Notes: generated from the letters alone by a model not told the origin. A stretch of DNA of 64,000 nt from Halovivax gelatinilyticus (GCF_024300625.1 NZ_CP101322.1:1439992-1503991); one strand, 5' to 3'. Counted from the first letter of the stretch, positions 13,960 through 24,996 are shown. Numbers and translations are program-made.

Positions 13960-14952
13960 ATGGACGCCGTCGTCCTCGCCGGAGGCTACGCCACGCGTCT
14001 GTGGCCGATCACCCGCCACCGCCCGAAGATGTTCCTCCCGCTCGGCGAGACCACCGTCATCGACCGGCTCTACGCCGAGCTCGAGGCCGAATCGCGTATC
14101 GACGACGTCTACGTGAGTACGAACGAACGATTCGCCCCCGCGTTCGAATCGCACCTCGCCGACGCGCCCTACGAGAAGCCGCGGCTGTCGGTCGAGCGCA
14201 CGCGCGCCGAAGACGAGAAGTTCGGCGTCATCGCCGCCCTCGGCGAGTTGATCGACCGCGAGGGGATCGACGCGGACCTTCTCGTGCTCGCCGGCGACAA
14301 CGTGTTCGATTTCGCGCTCTCAGCCTTTCTCGAGCGTTACGACCGACGAGAGGGACCCTGCATCGCCGCGTACGACGTCGGCGACCCGTCGCGAGCGACC
14401 GGCTACGGCGTCGTCGATCTGGAGGGAGATCGCGTCGTCGATTTCGTCGAAAAGCCCGACGACCCGCCGGGAACGAACGTCTCGATCGGCTGTTACGCGT
14501 TTCCCCGCGAGACGCTCTCGTTGATTCCGAGCTACCTCGACGAGGGGAACGATCCGGACGAGCCGGGCTGGTTCGTCACCTGGCTCCAGCGAACCGAGCC
14601 GACGTACGCCTTTTCCTTCGACGGCCACTGGTTCGACGTCGGCACGCGCGAGAGTTACCTCGACGCCGTCGCCTGGTGCGTCGACGGCGAGTCACTGATC
14701 GCCGATTCGGCGACGCTCGAAAACGCCACCGTCGGGCCGAACAGCCACGTCATGGCGGACGTCTCGCTCGTCGACGTCGCGGTCGAACGAGCCGTGATCT
14801 TTCCGGGTGCGAGCGTCGAATCCGGCGTCGTTCGCCGGTCGATCGTCGACGAGGAGGCCGCGCTCTCAGGCGTCGACCTCGAGGACGCGATGGTCGGCGC
14901 GTACACCCAGATTCCCGGTCCAGCCAGCCGGGGCGACGATCGCCCAGCCTAG
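13960..14952 (+). CDS. Sugar-phosphate nucleotidyltransferase
   Basis: A 330-residue protein starting with the nucleotidyltransferase signature VVLAGGYATRLWPITRHRPK. It continues with VLAGDNVFDF (metal-binding Asp), GYGVVDLEGDRVVDFVEKP, and a left-handed beta-helix-like C-terminus (ATLENATVGPNSHV, VIFPGASV) as in GlmU, RmlA-long and archaeal mannose/glucose-1-phosphate NTases. It makes NDP-sugars for glycosylation or exopolysaccharide. The exact sugar and nucleotide cannot be deduced. It stands alone, divergent from proS and convergent to a UspA gene. Confidence 0.88.
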   Translation: MDAVVLAGGYATRLWPITRHRPKMFLPLGETTVIDRLYAELEAESRIDDVYVSTNERFAPAFESHLADAPYEKPRLSVERTRAEDEKFGVIAALGELIDREGIDADLLVLAGDNVFDFALSAFLERYDRREGPCIAAYDVGDPSRATGYGVVDLEGDRVVDFVEKPDDPPGTNVSIGCYAFPRETLSLIPSYLDEGNDPDEPGWFVTWLQRTEPTYAFSFDGHWFDVGTRESYLDAVAWCVDGESLIADSATLENATVGPNSHVMADVSLVDVAVERAVIFPGASVESGVVRRSIVDEEAALSGVDLEDAMVGAYTQIPGPASRGDDRPA

Positions 14953-15072
14953 GTGCGCCGCAGGTCACTCTCGGGTACGGGTGCGCCGCAGATCCACGCG
15001 TATGGCTGCAAGTGATCCGCAGATGCACGCGTTTGGCTGCGGATGGGGCGCAGGTCACTCGTTCGGCTGCGG
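14952..15072. repeat. Four imperfect ~30-bp tandem repeats
   Basis: Units start near 14952, 14980, 15011 and 15043. They share the pattern gtgcgccgcagatccacgcg followed by ttggctgcgg, with many substitutions between copies. The array lies between two convergent genes and runs into the last codons of the UspA gene. Similar decayed tandem repeats occur at 49925-50004. Confidence 0.65.
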
Positions 15073-15960
15073 GTGGGTCGCGCTCACCGGGACACACCAC
15101 ACCGGGACGTCGGCCCCGCGGAGGACGTTCTCGGTAACGCTCCCCAGAAACCACTGGCCGATGCCGGTCTGTCCGTGCGTCCCCATGACGATCGCGTCGA
15201 CTGGCGACTCGTCCGCGTAGGCGAGGATCACGCGAGCCGGCGCGCCGCTCGCGACCGAGCCCGTGACGGAGACGCCGGCGTCGCGAGCGCGTTCGCGGAC
15301 AGACTCGAGGGTCGTCTCGCCCCGTTCTTCGAGCGCCGTGAGGACGTCAGCGGGCTCAGCGGCGCTTCGAAAGCGGCTCGTGTCGACCGAGTAGAGCGCG
15401 TCCACCGTCGAGTCGAGCGCGCTCGCGAGCGCAATCGCCCACTCGGTCGCGATCGCCGCCCCCTCGCTCCCGTCGGTCGGAAGCAGCAGGCGGTCGAACG
15501 AGATCGTCTCGACCGGCGGAGGGTCCGCGTTCGGCGGGACCGCGAGAACGGGCACGTGAGCCGTCCTGAGGACGTTTTCGGTGACGCTCCCGAGGAGGAA
15601 GCGATCGAGACCCGTCCGGCCTTTCGTCCCCATGACGATCGCGTCGGTCTCGTGGCGATGGGCGTACTCCCTGATCGACTGGAACGGCGTTCCGCTCCTG
15701 ACGGTCGTCCTGACGGAGAGATCCGGATCGAACTCGGCGGCGAGATCCGCAACCGTCTCGGCAGCGTCCTCGGCGGCCGATTCGAACACGGAGAGCGTTT
15801 CCTCGTCGAGCGTCGACGGCCCGTCGGGTGCGTCGACCACCGAGAGGACGTGAACGTCGGCACCGAGGCGCGACGCGAGCGCGATGCCGTGGTCGGCTCC
15901 GGCGACAGCACCCTCGCTCCCGTCGGTCGGTACCAGGATCGATTCGATGAATCGGCTCAT
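15055..15960 (-). CDS. Tandem-domain universal stress protein
   Basis: A 301-residue protein made of two UspA domains. Each begins with an LVPTDGSEGA or LLPTDGSEGA strand-loop (residues ~9 and ~158) and ends with the nucleotide-binding motif (MGTKGRTGLDRFLLGSVTEN and MGTHGQTGIGQWFLGSVTEN). Double-domain Usp proteins generally bind ATP as intramolecular dimers. The C-terminus is encoded within a ~30-bp imperfect DNA repeat. It sits next to a TreT-like trehalose synthase on the same strand (76 bp apart), which would fit a common osmotic or general stress response. Confidence 0.92.
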   Translation of the reverse strand: MSRFIESILVPTDGSEGAVAGADHGIALASRLGADVHVLSVVDAPDGPSTLDEETLSVFESAAEDAAETVADLAAEFDPDLSVRTTVRSGTPFQSIREYAHRHETDAIVMGTKGRTGLDRFLLGSVTENVLRTAHVPVLAVPPNADPPPVETISFDRLLLPTDGSEGAAIATEWAIALASALDSTVDALYSVDTSRFRSAAEPADVLTALEERGETTLESVRERARDAGVSVTGSVASGAPARVILAYADESPVDAIVMGTHGQTGIGQWFLGSVTENVLRGADVPVWCVPVSATHPQPNE

Positions 15961-16036
15961 TGGACTCGGCTACTCCACCACTCACCGGCGGATAATTGTG
16001 GGGGTGTCAGATCGGACCGTCCGAACGCAGACGAAC

Positions 16037-17281
16037 TCACGAATGCGTTTCGAGCACGCTCACGAAGGTCGAGAGTAGCTCTTCGAGTTGTCGGGGGAGC
16101 AGGAAGCGTTCGCGAACGTGGTCTCTGGCGCGTTCACCGAACGCTGTTCGGCGCTCGTCGTCTTCGAGAAGCGAAACGAGGCGGTCTGCGGCGCCGGCGA
16201 CGTCGTCGGCCGCGACGAGGTAGCCGGTCTGCCCGTCGACGATCTGTAACGGAATACCGCCGACGTCGGAACCGACGACGGGCGTGCGCTTCCAGAGCGC
16301 CTCGGAGACGACCAGTCCGAAGCCTTCGCGGATGGACTTCTGGACGACGACGTCCGCCTCGGTCTGCAGGACGTTCACCGCTCGATCCGTCAGGTCGGTC
16401 AGGACGTGGACGTCCGGATCGTCGACGGCCTCGCCGGCCACCCGTTCGTACAACTCCAGGCCTTCGGGGTCGTCGCCGGCCATCCCGCCACACAGCGCCA
16501 GCTGTAGTCCGTCAATCTCCTCGCTGGCGCGACGGTACGCCTCGAGCGTTCCGAACTGGTCTTTCCACGGATCGAACCGAGAAACCTGCGCGACCACCGG
16601 GCGGTCGAACGAGAGCGGGTCGAGGCGGTCGCGTTCGGTCGCGATCGCGTCCGGATCGAGCGAGCGGTTCTTCTCCGCGAGCGGGTCGATCGACGGGGAG
16701 ATGACGCTCGGTTCCGGCACGTCCATCTCGCCGACGTACGCCGAGCGGCTGAATATCGCGTGGTCGACCCGTTTCGTGTAGTCAGAAACGAACGAGAGGT
16801 ACGCGTCGTCCGGATCGGTCAGGTCGATGTGACAGCGCCAGACGACCGGCGCGTCGGCCATCGTCTCCTCGATGCGGTCGAGCATCCCGAGCGGCTGGGG
16901 ATCGTGAACGACGACGAGGTCGTACGCCTCGTCGAGTTCGGCCCCGTTACGATCGGTTTCCCGGCGGTAGGTCGCTTTCATCTCGTCGGTGAACGCCGGA
17001 CCCTCCCCCTGGAGCCCGTTGTGCATCGCCTTGGTCACCTCGTAGAAGTCGTCCTCGGCGTCCATGACCAGCCAGTCGGTGTCGACACCGAGGTCGACAC
17101 AGACCGGGACGATCGACCGGAGGAGTTCGGCGACGCCGCCGCCGGTCGCGGTCGAATTGACGTGGAGGATGCGAACGCCGTCGAGCCGGCTCGCCAGCGA
17201 TCGAAGGCGTTCGAGCCGATCGACGTCAATCACGGCTTCGTACGCCTCGATCGACCGATCGGGGAGAGATGGCGCGTGCAT
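16037..17281 (-). CDS. treT: Trehalose glycosyltransferring synthase-like GT4 enzyme
   Basis: A 414-residue GT-B fold glycosyltransferase; archaeal TreT is about 415 residues. Typical TreT features are HVNSTATGGGVAELLRSIVP near residue 40, WRCHIDLTDPD around 160, and the GT4 nucleotide-sugar site (SIREGFGLVVSEALWKRTPVV around 325). TreT joins NDP-glucose and glucose to trehalose, a compatible solute. The start MHAPSLPDRS at 17281 matches the domain; upstream codons look non-coding. The divergent neighbour is a YjbQ protein. Substrate preference is inferred from the family. Confidence 0.85.
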   Translation of the reverse strand: MHAPSLPDRSIEAYEAVIDVDRLERLRSLASRLDGVRILHVNSTATGGGVAELLRSIVPVCVDLGVDTDWLVMDAEDDFYEVTKAMHNGLQGEGPAFTDEMKATYRRETDRNGAELDEAYDLVVVHDPQPLGMLDRIEETMADAPVVWRCHIDLTDPDDAYLSFVSDYTKRVDHAIFSRSAYVGEMDVPEPSVISPSIDPLAEKNRSLDPDAIATERDRLDPLSFDRPVVAQVSRFDPWKDQFGTLEAYRRASEEIDGLQLALCGGMAGDDPEGLELYERVAGEAVDDPDVHVLTDLTDRAVNVLQTEADVVVQKSIREGFGLVVSEALWKRTPVVGSDVGGIPLQIVDGQTGYLVAADDVAGAADRLVSLLEDDERRTAFGERARDHVRERFLLPRQLEELLSTFVSVLETHS

Positions 17282-17546
17282 CAGATAGGGTCCGTACCAC
17301 GAGGACGCTCGTATCTTTGGGGGTTCTATCTCGCTGAAGGGCCTCGGCGACAAGGTCGTCCACTCGGCGAGCCCTGGGATACCCGCATGGAGTGGCAAAC
17401 GCAAGCGAACACTGTCCGCCACGTTCGGGACGACGTTCGAGTGCGAAGGCGCTGATCTGGTCCTCCCGCTCGAAGCCTACTGTACGACCGGTTAATCGAC
17501 GCGTACCGGCGGGAACTTTGTCGCTCCTGGGCGTAGACCCGATCCG

Positions 17547-17952: not shown

Positions 17953-18948
17953 TCAATCGATCCGGTCGGCCACGGTCGCTAGCTGCCGTCGCAGTTGCGT
18001 CCGACCGCGCTCGGTTCGAGAGACGGCCAAGAGGTTCGCAGCCGACTGGACGAGCCAGCGGCGTTTGTACGCCGAGGCGCGGTCGGGGTAACCTCGGTCG
18101 AGCGGGGCGCGGCCCCGATAGGCCGCCCGGAAGCGAGCGCGGAGGCGCTCGCGTTCGGGCCTCGGGAATCGGTATCGGTCGACGAATCGGACTTCCGCGC
18201 GAGCGATCGCGTACTCCGGCCGGGTGACGTGGGCGTTGCCCCAGTCCAGCACGGCCGACAGCGCGCCCGTTTCACTCACGAGGAGGTTTCCGGGGTGAAA
18301 GTCGCCGTGGGTCAGGACGGGCCGAGCGCCTGACGGAGCGTTCGACACCGACTCGACGAGTCGGCGGTGCAACCGGCCGTGCAGCGATGCGGGCGCGGCC
18401 ACCTCTAGCGTCGTCTCGGTGCGCTCGAGGACGGCTGCGTGGCGAAGGTGGCCGGCGCCGGTCCGGTCGGGGCGTTCGGTGACGTCGTCCCCAGAGAAGG
18501 AGTCATCCAGGGCGAGCGGCTCGGCCGCGTGGAGCCGGCCGAGCGCGTCGCCGGCGTCGGTCACGATCCGACGGCGCACCCGCGGATCGGCGTCGCGATA
18601 CCACGGATCCGGGTTCGATCCATCGAGACACTCGTAAATCGCCCACCGGTGATCGCCCGTGAGCCGACCCCCGCGAACCGAACCCGTCGCGAGGACGGCC
18701 GGAACCGGAAGGTCGGTCGTTTCCCCGACGAGTCGGACCACCTCGGGTTCGATCACGTCGCCGATCCAGACGTTCGCCCCGCCGAGCTTGCAGATCGCGA
18801 GCGACGGCGAGCCGGCGAGGGCGAGGCGAAACGTCTCAGAGACGGAGCCGACGGCCGGACGCTCACAGCGCTCGACGGACGTTCCGAGCGCGTCCGCGAC
18901 GATCCGTTCGACGGACGCCGGAGCGGTAGATCGGGCCGTCTTCGTCAT
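17953..18948 (-). CDS. Aminoglycoside phosphotransferase-fold kinase
   Basis: A 331-residue protein with the APH fold: an N-lobe with SVSETFRLAL, the catalytic loop THGDFHPGNLL (Asp base, Asn metal ligand), and VLDWGNAHVTRPEY (metal-binding Asp). Members phosphorylate small molecules such as homoserine, choline, fructosamine or macrolides. No evidence points to a given substrate. The start MTKTARSTAP at 18948 places the fold at normal distance. It is divergent from the FkbM methyltransferase gene. Confidence 0.85.
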   Translation of the reverse strand: MTKTARSTAPASVERIVADALGTSVERCERPAVGSVSETFRLALAGSPSLAICKLGGANVWIGDVIEPEVVRLVGETTDLPVPAVLATGSVRGGRLTGDHRWAIYECLDGSNPDPWYRDADPRVRRRIVTDAGDALGRLHAAEPLALDDSFSGDDVTERPDRTGAGHLRHAAVLERTETTLEVAAPASLHGRLHRRLVESVSNAPSGARPVLTHGDFHPGNLLVSETGALSAVLDWGNAHVTRPEYAIARAEVRFVDRYRFPRPERERLRARFRAAYRGRAPLDRGYPDRASAYKRRWLVQSAANLLAVSRTERGRTQLRRQLATVADRID

Positions 18949-19109
18949 GGGTACTGGTGGTGGAAACGTAGATTCTGACGGGCCGGTTCGGTCGAGAGCG
19001 GGCTTCGAACGGTATAGGCGTCGACGCGACGAACCAAAACGGTCCGTACCGAACGCAGGAGCTGAACGTCGCCACAACACCCAACAGCGACCGGGACGTC
19101 TCGGTCCGC

Positions 19110-19916
19110 ATGCGATTGGGCTCCGGGAGCCGCGCGTTCAACCGGGTGCGTCGCGGGGCGCACCTGCGCCTCCGACGGGCGATCCTCGGCGGGTACTACC
19201 GACTCGTCGGTCTGAACTACGACCGGCAGTGGATCGCGCCGCGAAAGCGGACCGTCGGGGGAACCGTGCGGAGTTACGAACTCTACAACCGCCACGGCCG
19301 GGACGCGATGCTCGCGGCCGTCGACGCCCGCGCCGCGTCCGACGGGGTGGTCTACGACGTCGGGGCGAACGTCGGCGTCTACGCGCTCGCCCTCGCGGCG
19401 GAAACCCCGGATCGGCGGATCGTCGCGTTCGAGCCGGCCCCGCGCGTCGTCGAACAGCTTCGGGCCAACGTCGAGGTGAACGGCTTCGCAGATCGAATCG
19501 ACGTCCGCCACTGCGGCCTCGGCGAGGTGGCGGGCGAGCGCCCGTTCTACGTCTCGACGTACGCGGAGCTATCCGGGTTCGACGCGGCGAGCGCTCGCCG
19601 GTGGGAGGCGTCAGTCGCGGCGGAGACGACGGTTCCGGTCCGCCGACTCGACGACGTCGTCGACGAGGGCCCCACGCCGGAGGTCCTCAAGATCGACGTC
19701 GAGGGGGCCGCTCCGTCGGTTCTCCGCGGCGGGCGAGAGACGCTGGAGCGTCACCGCCCGACGGTGTTCCTCGAGGTGCACGGGGACGGACTCGACGGTG
19801 ACGAGGGGCTCGACTGTCGGTCGATCCTCGACGACGCGGGATACCGCGTTCGGTCGTTCGACGCGTACTGGGTAGCCGAGCCGACCGAGGGCGATCGGAG
19901 CGAAGACGGCGACTGA
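19110..19916 (+). CDS. FkbM family methyltransferase
   Basis: A 268-residue SAM-dependent methyltransferase. The basic N-terminal 40 residues may be membrane-associated. Motif I is DVGANVGVYALALA (about residue 87), followed by VAFEPAPRVVEQLRANVEVNG and the FkbM hallmark LKIDVEGAAPSVLRGG. The family O-methylates sugars and natural products. It is the first gene of a rightward run of seven genes up to 24996 that includes a phosphatidyltransferase, a glycosyltransferase and another methyltransferase, so a role in modifying a glycan or glycolipid is plausible. Confidence 0.88.
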   Translation: MRLGSGSRAFNRVRRGAHLRLRRAILGGYYRLVGLNYDRQWIAPRKRTVGGTVRSYELYNRHGRDAMLAAVDARAASDGVVYDVGANVGVYALALAAETPDRRIVAFEPAPRVVEQLRANVEVNGFADRIDVRHCGLGEVAGERPFYVSTYAELSGFDAASARRWEASVAAETTVPVRRLDDVVDEGPTPEVLKIDVEGAAPSVLRGGRETLERHRPTVFLEVHGDGLDGDEGLDCRSILDDAGYRVRSFDAYWVAEPTEGDRSEDGD

Positions 19917-20025
19917 CGGACGGACGCCACTGACGAAAACGGGAGACACCGACGTCGACGTCGGTCCGACCCCGGCGAGCGCGAACGACCGAAAGGCCCA
20001 TCATCGGATTCGTGGACGAGACCCC

Positions 20026-20409
20026 ATGGCCCGTCGCGTTCGCCGCTCCGGACTCTCTGCGCTGCAGTGGGTCGCGGTCGCGCTCGTCGTCGCGACCGGC
20101 GGCGTCCACCTCGGGCTCGGGGTCGTCTTCCTGCCGGAGCCGCTGGCGGTCGCGTTCGTGCTCGCGGGACTCGGCTACGCCGGCGCGCTGATCCTGTTCG
20201 CCTTCGACGTGCGCCGGCGGCTCCTCTACCTCGCCGGCGTCCCGTTCGTCGGCGCGCAGATCGTCGCCTGGTACGCGTTGAACCGACCGAGCGGCGTCGA
20301 CGACCTGTCGGTCGGCGAGACGGCGGATAAGCTCGTACAGCTCGCGTTGATCGTCGTCCTGATCGTCCTCTACCGACGCGACGATCGATCGACGGAGCGT
20401 ACCGCGTGA
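20026..20409 (+). CDS. Four-helix membrane protein
   Basis: A 127-residue protein with about four membrane segments (residues ~13-34, 38-62, 65-85 and 98-117) and a charged C-terminus. Its stop overlaps the GTG start of the CDP-alcohol phosphatidyltransferase by 4 bp, so the two are coupled. The family is widespread in haloarchaea as far as I recall but has no known function. The coupling suggests it assists the phosphatidyltransferase or its product. Confidence 0.75.
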   Translation: MARRVRRSGLSALQWVAVALVVATGGVHLGLGVVFLPEPLAVAFVLAGLGYAGALILFAFDVRRRLLYLAGVPFVGAQIVAWYALNRPSGVDDLSVGETADKLVQLALIVVLIVLYRRDDRSTERTA

Positions 20410-21221
20410 GTCGATTCGATCGAATCCGACGGCTCGACGGAGCGTCGAACCAGGCTCTCGAAGGTGCGCTCGGGGCAGTCATTCTCGCCGGCGTGGGGGT
20501 GCTGGTCGTCGCCGCCGTCCGACCGTCGGTACGGACGACGGCGTTTCCGGCGTGGGTGGCGCTCGCGCTCGGGTGTCAGCTGCTCGTCGTCGCGGGCGTC
20601 GTCGAGCGCACGCGTCGACGCGGCGAGGACGTTCGGCTCACCGCGGCCACCCACCTCACCGTCTCGCGAACCGCCCTCCTCGCACTGCTGATCGGGGTCG
20701 TCGCCGCGGTACCCGAGTCGACCGCGTGGGTGGCAGGCGGCCTCTTCGGCGCGGCGGTGATACTCGACGGGCTCGACGGCGCGGTCGCTCGTCGCAGAGA
20801 CGACGAAACGGTTCTCGGCGCTCGCCTCGACCGCGACGTGGACGGGCTCACCACGCTCGTCGGTGCCGGCGCGGCCGTCGCCGTCGGCGCCGCCCCGACC
20901 GCCTTCCTCGCCGTCGGGCTGGCCCGGTACGGGTTCGTCCTCGGGTGCTGGTGGCGCAGACGGCGAGGACGACGGGTACGCGATCTGCCGCCGAACCGCT
21001 TGCGGGCACCGTTGTCCGTGCTCGTGCTCGTCGCGATCTGGGTCGCGCTGGTCCCGCCGGTCCCGGACGCGTGGACGGCCGTCATCGCGAGCGCCGTCGC
21101 GGGTCCGTTCCTCGCGAACTTTGCGTGGGACTGGCTCGCCGTCACGGGTCGCCTCTCCCGGTTGTCGCGTTCGTCGACGCCCCGGGAGGACGGAGAGGCG
21201 GTGGCGCGAGAAGATGATTGA
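20406..21221 (+). CDS. CDP-alcohol phosphatidyltransferase
   Basis: A 271-residue polytopic enzyme with the complete family motif D-G-x2-A-R-x8-G-x3-D-x3-D spanning residues 124-146 (DGAVARR..., GARLDRDVD). Such enzymes transfer a phosphatidyl-like or phospho-alcohol group from a CDP-activated donor to an alcohol, with the aspartates coordinating two metals. Archaeal members make archaetidyl-inositol, -serine or -glycerol phosphates; this copy is longer and has an unusual N-terminus with two extra hydrophobic segments. GTG start coupled to the upstream membrane protein. Confidence 0.88.
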   Translation: MSRFDRIRRLDGASNQALEGALGAVILAGVGVLVVAAVRPSVRTTAFPAWVALALGCQLLVVAGVVERTRRRGEDVRLTAATHLTVSRTALLALLIGVVAAVPESTAWVAGGLFGAAVILDGLDGAVARRRDDETVLGARLDRDVDGLTTLVGAGAAVAVGAAPTAFLAVGLARYGFVLGCWWRRRRGRRVRDLPPNRLRAPLSVLVLVAIWVALVPPVPDAWTAVIASAVAGPFLANFAWDWLAVTGRLSRLSRSSTPREDGEAVAREDD

Positions 21222-21303
21222 GAGCGGCGTGCGCCCGACCCTGGCGAATCAGGTGAAAATCACGCCAACAGCCAAGTGTACGCGTATTGAGCGGACGGCT
21301 ATC

Positions 21304-22380
21304 GTGACTGGAACGGACGACGGCGGGGACCGAACGCGACGGAACCCCAGCGGTGGCTCGACCGCCCGGCGCGTGACGTTCACTGGCCCACGAACAGTGA
21401 CCGTCGAGCGTCGGCCGGTTCCGGAACCGGGCCCGTCCGAGTTGCGGGTCCGCACGAGCCTGTCGGCGGTGAGCGCCGGCACCGAGGGACTCGTCTACCG
21501 CGGCGACGCGCCCGAGGGACTGGCGGCCGACGAGACGATCGACGCGCTCTGTGGCGACTGTTCGTTCCCGATCGCCTACGGCTACGCCGTGGTCGGTCGG
21601 GTCGACCGGGTCGGCCGCGACGTCGACGACGAGTGGCTCGACCGGCGCGTGTTCGCCTACAATCCCCACGAGAGTCACGTTCTCGCGACACCGGAGGCGG
21701 TCGTCCCGGTCCCCGACGGCGTCTCGACGCGTGCGGCGGCGCTGTTCGCGAACGCGGAGAGCGCCGTCTCGTTCCTGCTCGACGGCCAACCGCTCGTCGG
21801 CGAACGCGTCGCCGTCTTCGGACAGGGCGTCGTCGGCCTGCTGACGACGGCGCTACTCGGTCGCACGCCGATCGAGACGCTCGTCGCGGTCGACCGGTAC
21901 GAGCACCGACGGGGTCTCGCCGCCTCCCTCGGCGCGGACGAGACGATCGATCCGACGAATGAGACACGCGACGGCGTCGCCGGAGCGGTCGCCGAACTCG
22001 CCGGCGAGCGGACCGACCTGACGTACGAACTCTCGGGCAATCCGGACGCCCTCGACGACGCGGTCGCGGCGACCGGCTACGACGGCCGCGTGATCGTCGG
22101 CTCGTGGTACGGTGACAGACCGGTGACCGCCGACCTCGGCGGCCGGTTCCACCGGGATCGTATCGACGTTCGAAGTAGCCAGGTGAGTACGATCGCGCCG
22201 AGACACCGCGGTCGTTGGACCCGCGAGCGCCGCCGCCAGACCGCCTGGAACTGGCTTCGTCGACTCGACCTCGACTCGCTGTTCACCCACGAGTTCGCCG
22301 TCGACCGGGCGGCCGACGCCTACCGACTGATAGACGAGCGACCCGAGGAGGCGGTGCAGGTGCTGTTCACGTACGAGTGA
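21304..22380 (+). CDS. Medium-chain dehydrogenase/reductase lacking the canonical zinc motif
   Basis: A 358-residue MDR-fold oxidoreductase: N-terminal GroES-like domain with LSAVSAGTEGLVYRG, then a Rossmann domain with VAVFGQGVVGLLTTALL and VAVDRYEHRR. The usual catalytic-zinc GHE motif is replaced (PIAYGYAVVGRVDRVG), as in BchC-like members that share the SAGTE signature. It therefore probably uses NAD(P) without the standard zinc chemistry. The GTG at 21304 is preferred, though an ATG at 21214 overlapping the previous stop would also be in frame. It is the fourth gene of the seven-gene run. Confidence 0.82.
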   Translation: MTGTDDGGDRTRRNPSGGSTARRVTFTGPRTVTVERRPVPEPGPSELRVRTSLSAVSAGTEGLVYRGDAPEGLAADETIDALCGDCSFPIAYGYAVVGRVDRVGRDVDDEWLDRRVFAYNPHESHVLATPEAVVPVPDGVSTRAAALFANAESAVSFLLDGQPLVGERVAVFGQGVVGLLTTALLGRTPIETLVAVDRYEHRRGLAASLGADETIDPTNETRDGVAGAVAELAGERTDLTYELSGNPDALDDAVAATGYDGRVIVGSWYGDRPVTADLGGRFHRDRIDVRSSQVSTIAPRHRGRWTRERRRQTAWNWLRRLDLDSLFTHEFAVDRAADAYRLIDERPEEAVQVLFTYE

Positions 22381-22521
22381 CGGTGTCGAGGCAACGTCGA
22401 CACACCTGTCGAGGCGCTGGCGTGGCCGGTCGGGCCTGCGGCCGATTCGACGGCGACGACGGCGACCTGCAGGAACCCGGCGTCGCGAGGGGCCGCTCCG
22501 GCCGCGAGAAACGACCCATCG

Positions 22522-22527
22522 TTTATC
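22522..22527 (+). promoter_or_regulatory. TATA box for the PTPS-GT4-methyltransferase operon
   Basis: TTTATC at -30 to -25 from the ATG at 22552, in an otherwise GC-rich 171-bp spacer. The spacing fits an archaeal promoter driving a leaderless mRNA. It suggests that the last three genes of the cluster form their own transcription unit. Confidence 0.55.
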
Positions 22528-22551
22528 AGGACGGTTACGGTACGGCTGCCC

Positions 22552-22944
22552 ATGTACGAGGTATCGGTCAGTCGATCGTTCGTCGCCCAGCACGCGCTCA
22601 CCGTGGTCGACGCCGGGCCGGAGGGGTCCGTTCACTCCCACCGCTACACCGTCGAGGTCACCGTCTTCGGTCCGTCGATAGACGAGCGTGGCTATCTGGT
22701 CGACATCGACGAGCTGAGTGCGGTCGTCGACGAGCTGGTCGCGCGTTACCGCGACAGAACCTTGAACGACCTCGAATCGTTCGAAGGGCGGAATCCGAGC
22801 GCGGAACGCTTCGCGCGAATTTTCGGCGATCGGCTCTGTGCGGCGCTCGAACCCGCGGGGGCGACGCGGCTCCGGGTGTCGATGGCCGAAGACGAGATCG
22901 CTCGCGTCGCCCACGAACGATCGCTCGAGGACGGATCCGGTTGA
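22552..22944 (+). CDS. 6-pyruvoyl-tetrahydropterin synthase/QueD homologue without catalytic cysteine
   Basis: A 130-residue T-fold protein. The three zinc ligands are present (H14 in FVAQHAL, H28 and H30 in VHSHRYTVEV), as are GYLVDIDELS and NPSAERFARI, matching the family's substrate-binding PTxEN region. The catalytic Cys four residues before the HxH motif is replaced by Glu24, and the LDH motif is altered (RDRTLND). Canonical PTPS or QueD chemistry is therefore unlikely; lyase or binding functions on another substrate are conceivable. It is followed after 1 bp by a glycosyltransferase gene. Confidence 0.85.
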   Translation: MYEVSVSRSFVAQHALTVVDAGPEGSVHSHRYTVEVTVFGPSIDERGYLVDIDELSAVVDELVARYRDRTLNDLESFEGRNPSAERFARIFGDRLCAALEPAGATRLRVSMAEDEIARVAHERSLEDGSG

Positions 22945-22945
22945 G

Positions 22946-24085
22946 ATGTACGTCGGTTTCGTCGTCTACGGCGGCCTCGACCGGACGTCGGGCGGCTACC
23001 GATACGACCGGAAACTCGTCGAAAACCTGCGAGCCCACGGTGACGAGGTGGACGTCGTCGCGATCCCGCAGCGGACGTACCCGCGACACCTCGCCGACGG
23101 CGTCTCGCGCACGCTCCGTTCCCGGCTAAATCGACCGTACGACGTGCTCGTCCAGGACGAACTCTGTCACGCGTCGCTGTGGCGGCACAACCCGCACCTC
23201 GACCGACCGGGGGCGATCGTCTCGGTCGTCCACCTGCTCCGGTCCGGGCCGTCTGCGGGCGTCTGGTCGCCGCTCTACCGGTCGGTCGAGCGACGCTACC
23301 TCGACTCGGTCGGTGCCGCCGTCTGCACGAGCCGGGACACGCGCGATCGGACCGAGCGTCTCGCCGACGTTCCGACACAGGTAGCGCCGCCGGCCGGTCG
23401 CGTCGAAGGGGCTGCACTCGCATCCGACGAGGTGGCCTCCCGCGCCCGCGACGGCCGCCTTCGGGTGGCGTTCGTCGGCAATCTGCAACCGAGAAAGGGC
23501 GTGAAACCGCTTCTCGACGCGTTCTCCCGAATCGTCAACGAGAGACGTCGCTCGGCGACGCTCACCGTCGTCGGGAGTCGCGACGCCGACCCCGCCCACG
23601 CTCGATCGGCGGTCGAACGCGCGACCGAGCTCGACGTCGACGGGTGCGTCACGTTCGCCGGCCGGGTGTCGTCGGACGAACTTCGCCGAGTTCTCCGCCG
23701 GTCGCACGTTCTCGCGGTGCCCGCCGCCTACGAGGGATTTGGGATGGTCTACCTGGAGGCGATGGAGTACGGCGTCGTCCCGATCGCGAGCGCGGTCGGC
23801 GGCGCACGCGAGATCGTCGACGACGGTCAGAACGGATTCCTCGTCGAGCCGGGCGACGCGGACGCGCTCGCGGACCGCCTCGCGAGACTCGACGCCGACC
23901 GCGACGAACTCGCCCGGCTCGGGGCGAACGCGCTCCGGACGGCCGACGACCACCCGACGTGGGCGGAGACGACGGCGCGCGTTCGATCGTTCCTCCGGGC
24001 GCAGGCTGACGGATCCGATGACAGCCACGAGCGGGCGTCGAGATCCGGGACGTACTCGGCCGCCGAACCGGGTGACCCGCCGTGA
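22946..24085 (+). CDS. GT4 family glycosyltransferase
   Basis: A 379-residue GT-B glycosyltransferase. The N-terminal half begins MYVGFVVYGGLDRTSGGYRY. The C-terminal half contains VAFVGNLQPRKGVKPLLDAF and the donor-binding site AYEGFGMVYLEAMEYGVVPI with the EX7E pattern. It transfers a sugar from a nucleotide donor to an unknown acceptor. The start at 22946 lies 1 bp after the previous stop, and its end overlaps the next gene's GTG by 4 bp, so it is tightly coupled on both sides. Confidence 0.9.
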   Translation: MYVGFVVYGGLDRTSGGYRYDRKLVENLRAHGDEVDVVAIPQRTYPRHLADGVSRTLRSRLNRPYDVLVQDELCHASLWRHNPHLDRPGAIVSVVHLLRSGPSAGVWSPLYRSVERRYLDSVGAAVCTSRDTRDRTERLADVPTQVAPPAGRVEGAALASDEVASRARDGRLRVAFVGNLQPRKGVKPLLDAFSRIVNERRRSATLTVVGSRDADPAHARSAVERATELDVDGCVTFAGRVSSDELRRVLRRSHVLAVPAAYEGFGMVYLEAMEYGVVPIASAVGGAREIVDDGQNGFLVEPGDADALADRLARLDADRDELARLGANALRTADDHPTWAETTARVRSFLRAQADGSDDSHERASRSGTYSAAEPGDPP

Positions 24086-24996
24086 GCGACGCGTACCTCC
24101 TCGCGAAGCGGTCGGTCGACGACCGGGCGCTGAATCGGCGCGTCTGGCGGAGCTTCGTCGAGGAACTCGACGCGATCGACCGCCGAACCGACGGCCCCGT
24201 CCGCGTCTCCGAAATCGGCGGGGGTGTCGGGACGATGGTCGCCCGGCTCGCAGCGCGGGACGTCCTGCCGCCGGCAGTGGACTACCGCCTGATCGACCGC
24301 TCCGAGGGGTGCGTCGAGACCGCACGCGAGCGCCTGCCCGGCTGGCTCGCTGCGGTGGGCTACGACGTCGAGCACACGTCCGACGGGCTGGTGGCCCGTC
24401 TCGAGGAGTCCGAGCCGACGCGGCGGCTCGAAGTCACCCTCGAGTCCGGCGACGCGCTCTTACAGGACGTCGGGGCGGACGTCGTAATCGCCGCGGCCGT
24501 CGTCGACCTCCTCGATCGCGAGCGACTGGTGCGGTGGCTCGAATCCGTCCTTCGCCCGAACGGGTCGTTCTACGCGCCGATCACCTACGACGGCGCGACG
24601 GGATTCGCCCCATCCCACGCCCTCGACGACCGAATCGAACGGTTCTACCACCGACACATGGACGAGGTGCGAGACGCGCCGGGGAGCAGTCGGGCGGGGC
24701 GGCAACTGGTCGCCGAACTGGCCGGTCGGGGCTTCGACCGGGTCGAAACCGGCGGTTCGGACTGGGTGATCCACCCCGGCGGGGGCGGTTCGACGGCTGA
24801 CGAACCGTATTCGAGCGACGATGCGACCGTCCTCCACGCCGTCCTCGACGATATCGAGGCGGCGCTCTCCGAGTACCCGACGGACGCGCTCGATCCAGAC
24901 GACCGACGGCGCTGGCTGGAAACGCGACGCACCCAGTTCGACCGCGGCGAGCTCACGTACGTCGCGCACAACCTCGACGTGCTCGCCCGGCGGTGA
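24082..24996 (+). CDS. SAM-dependent methyltransferase
   Basis: A 304-residue Rossmann-fold protein. The SAM-binding motif is VSEIGGGVGTMVARLAARD (about residues 42-60), followed by an acidic residue region (YRLIDRSEGC) and DVVIAAAVVDLLDR as motif IV/post-I. No target family is recognised. It starts with GTG overlapping the glycosyltransferase stop (GTGA). As the last gene of the seven-gene run it may modify the product built by the glycosyltransferase and the phosphatidyltransferase. Confidence 0.82.
   Translation: MSDAYLLAKRSVDDRALNRRVWRSFVEELDAIDRRTDGPVRVSEIGGGVGTMVARLAARDVLPPAVDYRLIDRSEGCVETARERLPGWLAAVGYDVEHTSDGLVARLEESEPTRRLEVTLESGDALLQDVGADVVIAAAVVDLLDRERLVRWLESVLRPNGSFYAPITYDGATGFAPSHALDDRIERFYHRHMDEVRDAPGSSRAGRQLVAELAGRGFDRVETGGSDWVIHPGGGGSTADEPYSSDDATVLHAVLDDIEAALSEYPTDALDPDDRRRWLETRRTQFDRGELTYVAHNLDVLARR

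Follow-up and report, generated by a model that had tools for sequence, protein, structure and literature searches.

A conserved haloarchaeal gene cluster around a diverged PTPS homologue, probably for a GTP-derived metabolite

The window analysed here, a stretch of 64,000 nucleotides from Halovivax gelatinilyticus, carries an operon that is real and conserved and that probably serves a GTP-derived pathway. On balance, we favour as its product a small molecule built on a GTP-derived heterocycle of the pyrimidine or pterin type, which is glycosylated, methylated and probably joined via phosphate to a lipid or another alcohol. An enzyme set that is conserved in two domains of life, and whose members are usually annotated as queuosine, alcohol dehydrogenase or lipid genes, points to a missing GTP-derived metabolite.

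Operon layout and conservation in haloarchaea

The read-out of open reading frames and domains in the window shows seven ORFs, all on the plus strand, between positions 19110 and 24996, and thereby bears out the order, the common direction and the families given by a preceding sequence-only reading:

19110..19916, +, FkbM-family SAM methyltransferase (PF05050 and TIGR01444, both above cut-off)
20026..20409, +, small membrane protein of the DUF7475 family (PF24287, 6.2e-9)
20406..21221, +, CDP-alcohol phosphotransferase, CDP-OH (PF01066, CDP-OH_P_transf, 3.8e-13)
21304..22380, +, MDR oxidoreductase with a GTG start (PF00107, ADH_zinc_N, 1.1e-12)
22552..22944, +, diverged PTPS/COG0720 homologue (PF01242, 2.9e-23)
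22946..24085, +, GT4 glycosyltransferase (PF00534, 2.3e-38; also PF13692)
24082..24996, +, class I SAM-dependent methyltransferase, MT (PF08242)

The 4-bp overlaps, of which several had been noted, do exist, but at two junctions only, namely between the DUF7475 and CDP-OH genes (20406-20409) and between the GT4 and MT genes (24082-24085). The PTPS and GT4 genes are separated by 1 bp, and the remaining gaps amount to about 82 bp between CDP-OH and MDR, taking the GTG at 21304 as the MDR start, 109 bp between FkbM and DUF7475, and 171 bp between MDR and PTPS. A promoter and terminator scan of the operon gave no signal exceeding that of shuffled sequence.

With respect to the distribution of these genes, 92 of the 195 genomes sampled from the order have GT4 and 101 of 190 haloarchaeal genomes have MDR. 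Of the 87 haloarchaeal genomes having both genes, which were found by independent searches, 71 have them at most 8 kb apart, indicating clustering beyond chance. Among 65 loci compared for synteny (64 fetched plus the window, picked by GT4, with some genomes counted twice), a labelled PTPS homologue was found in 57, MDR in 52, MT in 50, CDP-OH in 46, DUF7475 in 40 and FkbM in about 14, and the linkage survives changes of gene order as well as inversions. Haloarchaeal synteny supports a six-gene unit of DUF7475, CDP-OH, MDR, the PTPS homologue, GT4 and MT. It also lends support to the earlier claim that the genes form a functionally linked and unusual pathway, although the check proposed with that claim, i.e., whether the genes are scattered in relatives, has a divided outcome: the six genes stay together, whereas FkbM is largely scattered.

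FkbM was rejected as a core gene because few of the related loci have it and because the FkbM genes that adjoin the cluster in four rhizobial cases are only distant kin (26% identity over 148 aa to the window protein); it is an accessory gene. Next to it, an APH-type phosphotransferase is encoded on the minus strand (17953-19080), a pairing also seen at L034, the nearest relative, and at L078, and this gene may be an occasional partner of FkbM. Further upstream (13960-17422) reside genes for a sugar-1-phosphate nucleotidyltransferase (+) and a TreT-like trehalose synthase glycosyltransferase (-), neither of which is conserved with the cluster.

Within the genus, the cluster is missing from three of four sampled genomes, and since these three congeners have neither MDR nor GT4, it is dispensable or mobile. 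Glycosylation and phosphotransfer are not universal, as the cluster of Haloarcula pelagica (L117) is devoid of GT4 and that of a member of the Rhodobacteraceae (L110) of both GT4 and CDP-OH.

The genomic surroundings of the cluster also vary. In many relatives, unlike at the window site, it is flanked by the genes for ribosomal proteins L1/L10/L12 and L11, recognised by sequence and not by family search (L035, L039, L041, L043, L074, L077, L079, L088, L089, L092 and L094). In a second haloarchaeal layout (L045, L053, L054, L058, L060 and L105), a Gfo/Idh-aldo/keto reductase fusion and a sulfatase-superfamily protein are encoded between CDP-OH/DUF7475 and MDR. A Natrarchaeobaculum plasmid (L102) carries a remnant cluster of GTP cyclohydrolase III (GCH III), MDR and a flippase adjoining an IS5 transposase, and on plasmid pNG700 of the published Haloarcula marismortui genome an unannotated PTPS gene is split over two frames (L105:9001-9420) and may be decayed or frameshifted.

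The PTPS homologue and the other enzymes

The PTPS homologue belongs to the PTPS/COG0720 superfamily, as it has the tunnel-fold and an invariant E113, and its AlphaFold model (pLDDT 92.6) matches both 3d7j and QueD. The structure models were built with archaeal alignments only. The best match in the PDB is SCO6650 of Streptomyces coelicolor (3d7j), which was ranked first by the fold model as well as by the archaeal-only profile and the structure of which was solved in 2008 without an assigned function. When compared to QueD, the position of the catalytic Cys is taken by E24 (E24-G-S-V-H-S-H in place of CxxxHGH), which is invariant in 26 archaeal homologues, and the Asp-His dyad is lost, with RD-R-T-LND replacing DHHYLND. 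In line with this divergence, the NCBIfam model for QueD (TIGR03367) yields 54.4 bits against a cut-off of 89.25. Retained are H14, H28, H30 and the pterin-anchoring Glu E113, and the residues invariant in the archaeal family comprise H14, E24, H28, H30, D51, N72, E85, E113 and D114. As the QueD residues are lost and the same genome encodes a separate canonical QueD with the motif CSRPHGH (CxxxHGH), the label "queuosine biosynthesis" is wrong for this gene.

Amongst the subfamilies of COG0720, PTPS-IV is marked by the signature FGPAQ and has a reported neighbourhood of PF00925 and PF01872 (PMC5445326). In the cluster, FGPAQ was found in the bacterial members only and is missing in the archaeal ones, which have GPEG instead.

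Of the other enzymes, the window CDP-OH protein has the complete motif D-x2-D-G-x2-A-R-x8-G-x3-D-x3-D, and its residues D121, D124, G125, A128, R129, G138, D142 and D146 are conserved across 52 homologues, some of them from bacterial clusters. The E-x7-E motif of GT4 is present as E263/E271 and conserved in 66 homologues. An alignment of MDR proteins from archaeal and bacterial clusters has 23 invariant columns; since the usual Cys region of the window MDR reads SAGTE, it is probably not a Zn enzyme. MT has conserved residues at G46/G48, D142, G171, G206, R282 and D299, and with its AlphaFold model (pLDDT 96) a fold search returned generic SAM methyltransferases only (TM about 0.4-0.6).

The intact CDP-OH and GT4 motifs would fit a polar glycolipid or phospho-sugar that contains no GTP-derived heterocycle, with PTPS and MDR acting on sugars or lipids, and genes for a Polysacc_synt flippase, LPG_synthase_TM and sulfatase-superfamily proteins do adjoin the clusters of some relatives. 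However, this explanation, which was that of the sequence-only reading, appears unlikely, as it accounts neither for the conserved pterin-anchoring Glu nor for the linked genes for GCH III, GTP cyclohydrolase II (GCH II), creatininase and RibD_C described below. What stands of the earlier "modified glycolipid or phospho-sugar" are the steps of lipid or phospho-alcohol, glycosyl and methyl transfer, whereas the evidence for a start from GTP had been overlooked.

GTP cyclohydrolases in archaea and bacteria

A recurring neighbour of the cluster in haloarchaea is GCH III (PF05165, 3.4e-91), which converts GTP to the formylaminopyrimidine nucleotide FAPy (reviewed in PMC9478397). In 42 of 88 cluster-bearing haloarchaeal genomes with known gene positions, GCH III lies within 8 kb of MDR or GT4 as compared to about 0.8 expected, a difference for which a formal p value is not meaningful because the genomes are related; the remaining 46 have no local GCH III. 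While the enzyme is near-universal (182 of 190 haloarchaea), 20 genomes have two copies, and in all 17 of these that have the cluster exactly one copy is located at the cluster and the other elsewhere. By comparison, three of the 62 clusterless genomes listed have two copies. Direct reading of individual regions showed GCH III beside MDR and PTPS at L118 and L124, and single or second copies away from MDR and PTPS at L119-L123 and L125.

In the window itself, no GTP cyclohydrolase, creatininase or RibD gene adjoins the operon, and a local GTP cyclohydrolase was therefore rejected as proof for this particular site. Elsewhere the same genome encodes a single chromosomal GCH III (at 3445227), three creatininase-family proteins and a RibD_C reductase. 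Throughout the archaeal loci, RibD was not seen and creatininase was rare (L067 and L105). At L123 (9166-11401), a second GCH III copy away from the cluster adjoins a creatininase-family gene, a candidate for the FAPy deformylase of haloarchaea; members of the creatininase family have been shown to act as FAPy formamidases (PMC9478397).

Such genes might also be expected if the cluster provided a supplementary route to an established cofactor, i.e., riboflavin, F420, folate or archaeosine, standing beside unrelated glycosyl and lipid genes. MDR, GT4, CDP-OH and MT are not known from any of these pathways. The cluster is moreover patchy, both by the MDR count (101/190) and within the genus (missing in three of four genomes), in contrast to GCH III (182/190), and its PTPS is devoid of the QueD/PTPS catalytic residues in a genome with a canonical QueD elsewhere. 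We consider a known cofactor improbable on these grounds, even though GCH III, creatininase and RibD_C act early in riboflavin/F420 synthesis (PMC9478397, PMC8305020), the Haloferax orthologue of GCH III is needed for riboflavin (PMC8305020), and PTPS-IV has been said, in an unpublished statement, to act in F420 synthesis (PMC5041015).

In bacteria, sampled here from plasmid records only, an MDR-PTPS-GT4-MT(-CDP-OH) cluster was found in Streptomyces, Microbacterium, Rhizobiaceae, Methylosinus and Thiodictyon, accompanied by genes for GCH II and/or a RibD_C reductase and, in Streptomyces, creatininase. The cluster of Streptomyces fungicidicus comprises CDP-OH, MDR, PTPS, GT4, MT, creatininase and GCH II, to which that of S. 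globisporus adds RibD_C and an LPG_synthase_TM gene. Agrobacterium, Peteryoungia, Rhizobium and Allorhizobium have GCH II, CDP-OH, MDR, PTPS, GT4, MT, RibD_C, cytochrome b561 and LPG_synthase_TM, and further occurrences are in Microbacterium, Neorhizobium, Methylosinus and Thiodictyon, with a cytochrome b561 gene in the Thiodictyon cluster as in the rhizobial ones. CDP-OH, MDR, PTPS, GT4 and MT thus occur jointly in the window and in the two Streptomyces species, Microbacterium, Rhizobiaceae and Thiodictyon.

The bacterial cyclohydrolases differ at one position. In S. fungicidicus GCH II, Met120 aligns with Tyr105 of the E. coli enzyme. Both Streptomyces clusters have Met at this position together with creatininase, whereas the five rhizobial enzymes have Tyr, with no creatininase in the stretches read. 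In work by Spoonamore et al. (2006), this Met was reportedly identified as the switch by which SCO6655 halts at FAPy. In this small sample, Met with creatininase as opposed to Tyr without it would fit a diaminopyrimidine intermediate common to both. Archaea and bacteria appear to feed the pathway with unrelated GTP cyclohydrolases, the Streptomyces enzyme appearing to stop at the same intermediate as GCH III.

The early steps of such a route recall toxoflavin, the genes of which follow the logic of a cyclohydrolase, a RibD-type enzyme and a methyltransferase. A toxoflavin-like secondary metabolite, secreted and not lipid-linked, made from a GTP-derived diaminopyrimidine would also suit minimal clusters such as L110 with neither GT4 nor CDP-OH. 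However, PTPS, MDR, GT4 and CDP-OH do not belong to the known toxoflavin gene set, toxoflavin-type partner proteins were not seen around the clusters, and a membrane CDP-OH enzyme is encoded in most of them (46/65 archaeal loci), which makes this origin very unlikely.

Proposed pathway and known systems

A start of the favoured pathway from GTP is suggested by the linked GCH III in archaea, by GCH II, creatininase and RibD_C in bacteria and by the retained pterin-anchoring Glu, although PTPS folds can accept other substrates. GTP would be opened to FAPy by GCH III, encoded elsewhere on the chromosome in this genome and by a second copy at the cluster in many relatives, or in bacteria by the cluster-borne GCH II. 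A creatininase-family enzyme would then remove the formyl group of FAPy, and in bacteria at least the RibD_C enzyme would carry out a reduction, so that the branch point would lie in the early riboflavin/F420 route. The order of substrates and all reactions beyond FAPy are drawn from the chemistry of the respective families: the diverged PTPS homologue and MDR would rework the ring or side chain, MT would methylate and GT4 glycosylate the heterocycle, and the membrane CDP-OH protein would form a phosphate link between the product and some alcohol, more likely archaeol (in bacteria, diacylglycerol). Least secure among these steps is the attachment to a lipid, which is suggested by the CDP-OH family, by flippase genes near L036 and in L102, and by LPG_synthase_TM and sulfatase-superfamily genes in relatives. 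There is some chance, though not a good one, that haloarchaea, actinobacteria and proteobacteria share a hitherto undescribed membrane lipid with a glycosylated, methylated GTP-derived pterin or aminopyrimidine head group attached by CDP-OH. With regard to a biological role, such a lipid may be a membrane-bound redox or light-active cofactor, and the cytochrome b561 genes of the rhizobial and Thiodictyon clusters may be noted alongside.

The closest known system is the SCO6650-type cluster of Streptomyces, read here in S. fungicidicus and S. globisporus rather than in the S. coelicolor chromosome, which shares with the window the set of CDP-OH, MDR, PTPS, GT4 and MT. The S. coelicolor SCO6650 cluster includes SCO6655, reportedly a GCH II that stops at FAPy. 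The clusters of the two species read likewise have a GCH II of the FAPy-forming type with the Met switch, whereas archaea use the unrelated GCH III; RibD was seen in the bacterial clusters only, as was, with rare exceptions, creatininase. In addition, the archaeal PTPS reads PEGxxHSH with three Zn-type His kept, in contrast to FGPAQxxHGA in the bacterial clusters.

QueD, i.e., 6-carboxytetrahydropterin synthase, which is the usual annotation, resembles the window homologue in the tunnel-fold and in the Zn-type His and pterin Glu positions, but differs from it in the catalytic Cys and Asp-His, which are replaced here, and in the TIGR03367 score below cut-off. With the early archaeal riboflavin/F420 route (GCH III ArfA, ArfB, ArfC) the proposed pathway has GCH III in common and probably also deformylation and reduction, but PTPS, MDR, MT, GT4 and CDP-OH follow here instead of the riboflavin/F420 enzymes, and in the 17 two-copy genomes a separate GCH III copy serves the cluster.

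In the literature searched, no description was found of the cluster or pathway, its archaeal branch or the link to GCH III, which supports the initial impression that no known pathway can be named. The nearest published observation is the PTPS-IV neighbourhood, as the bacterial cluster members have FGPAQ and exactly the neighbours PF00925 and PF01872; however, the archaeal members are without FGPAQ, and the published account names these two families alone and links them to no pathway (PMC5445326). S. coelicolor SCO6650 and the unassigned PTPS subfamilies thereby gain a concrete pathway that is testable in genetically tractable hosts.
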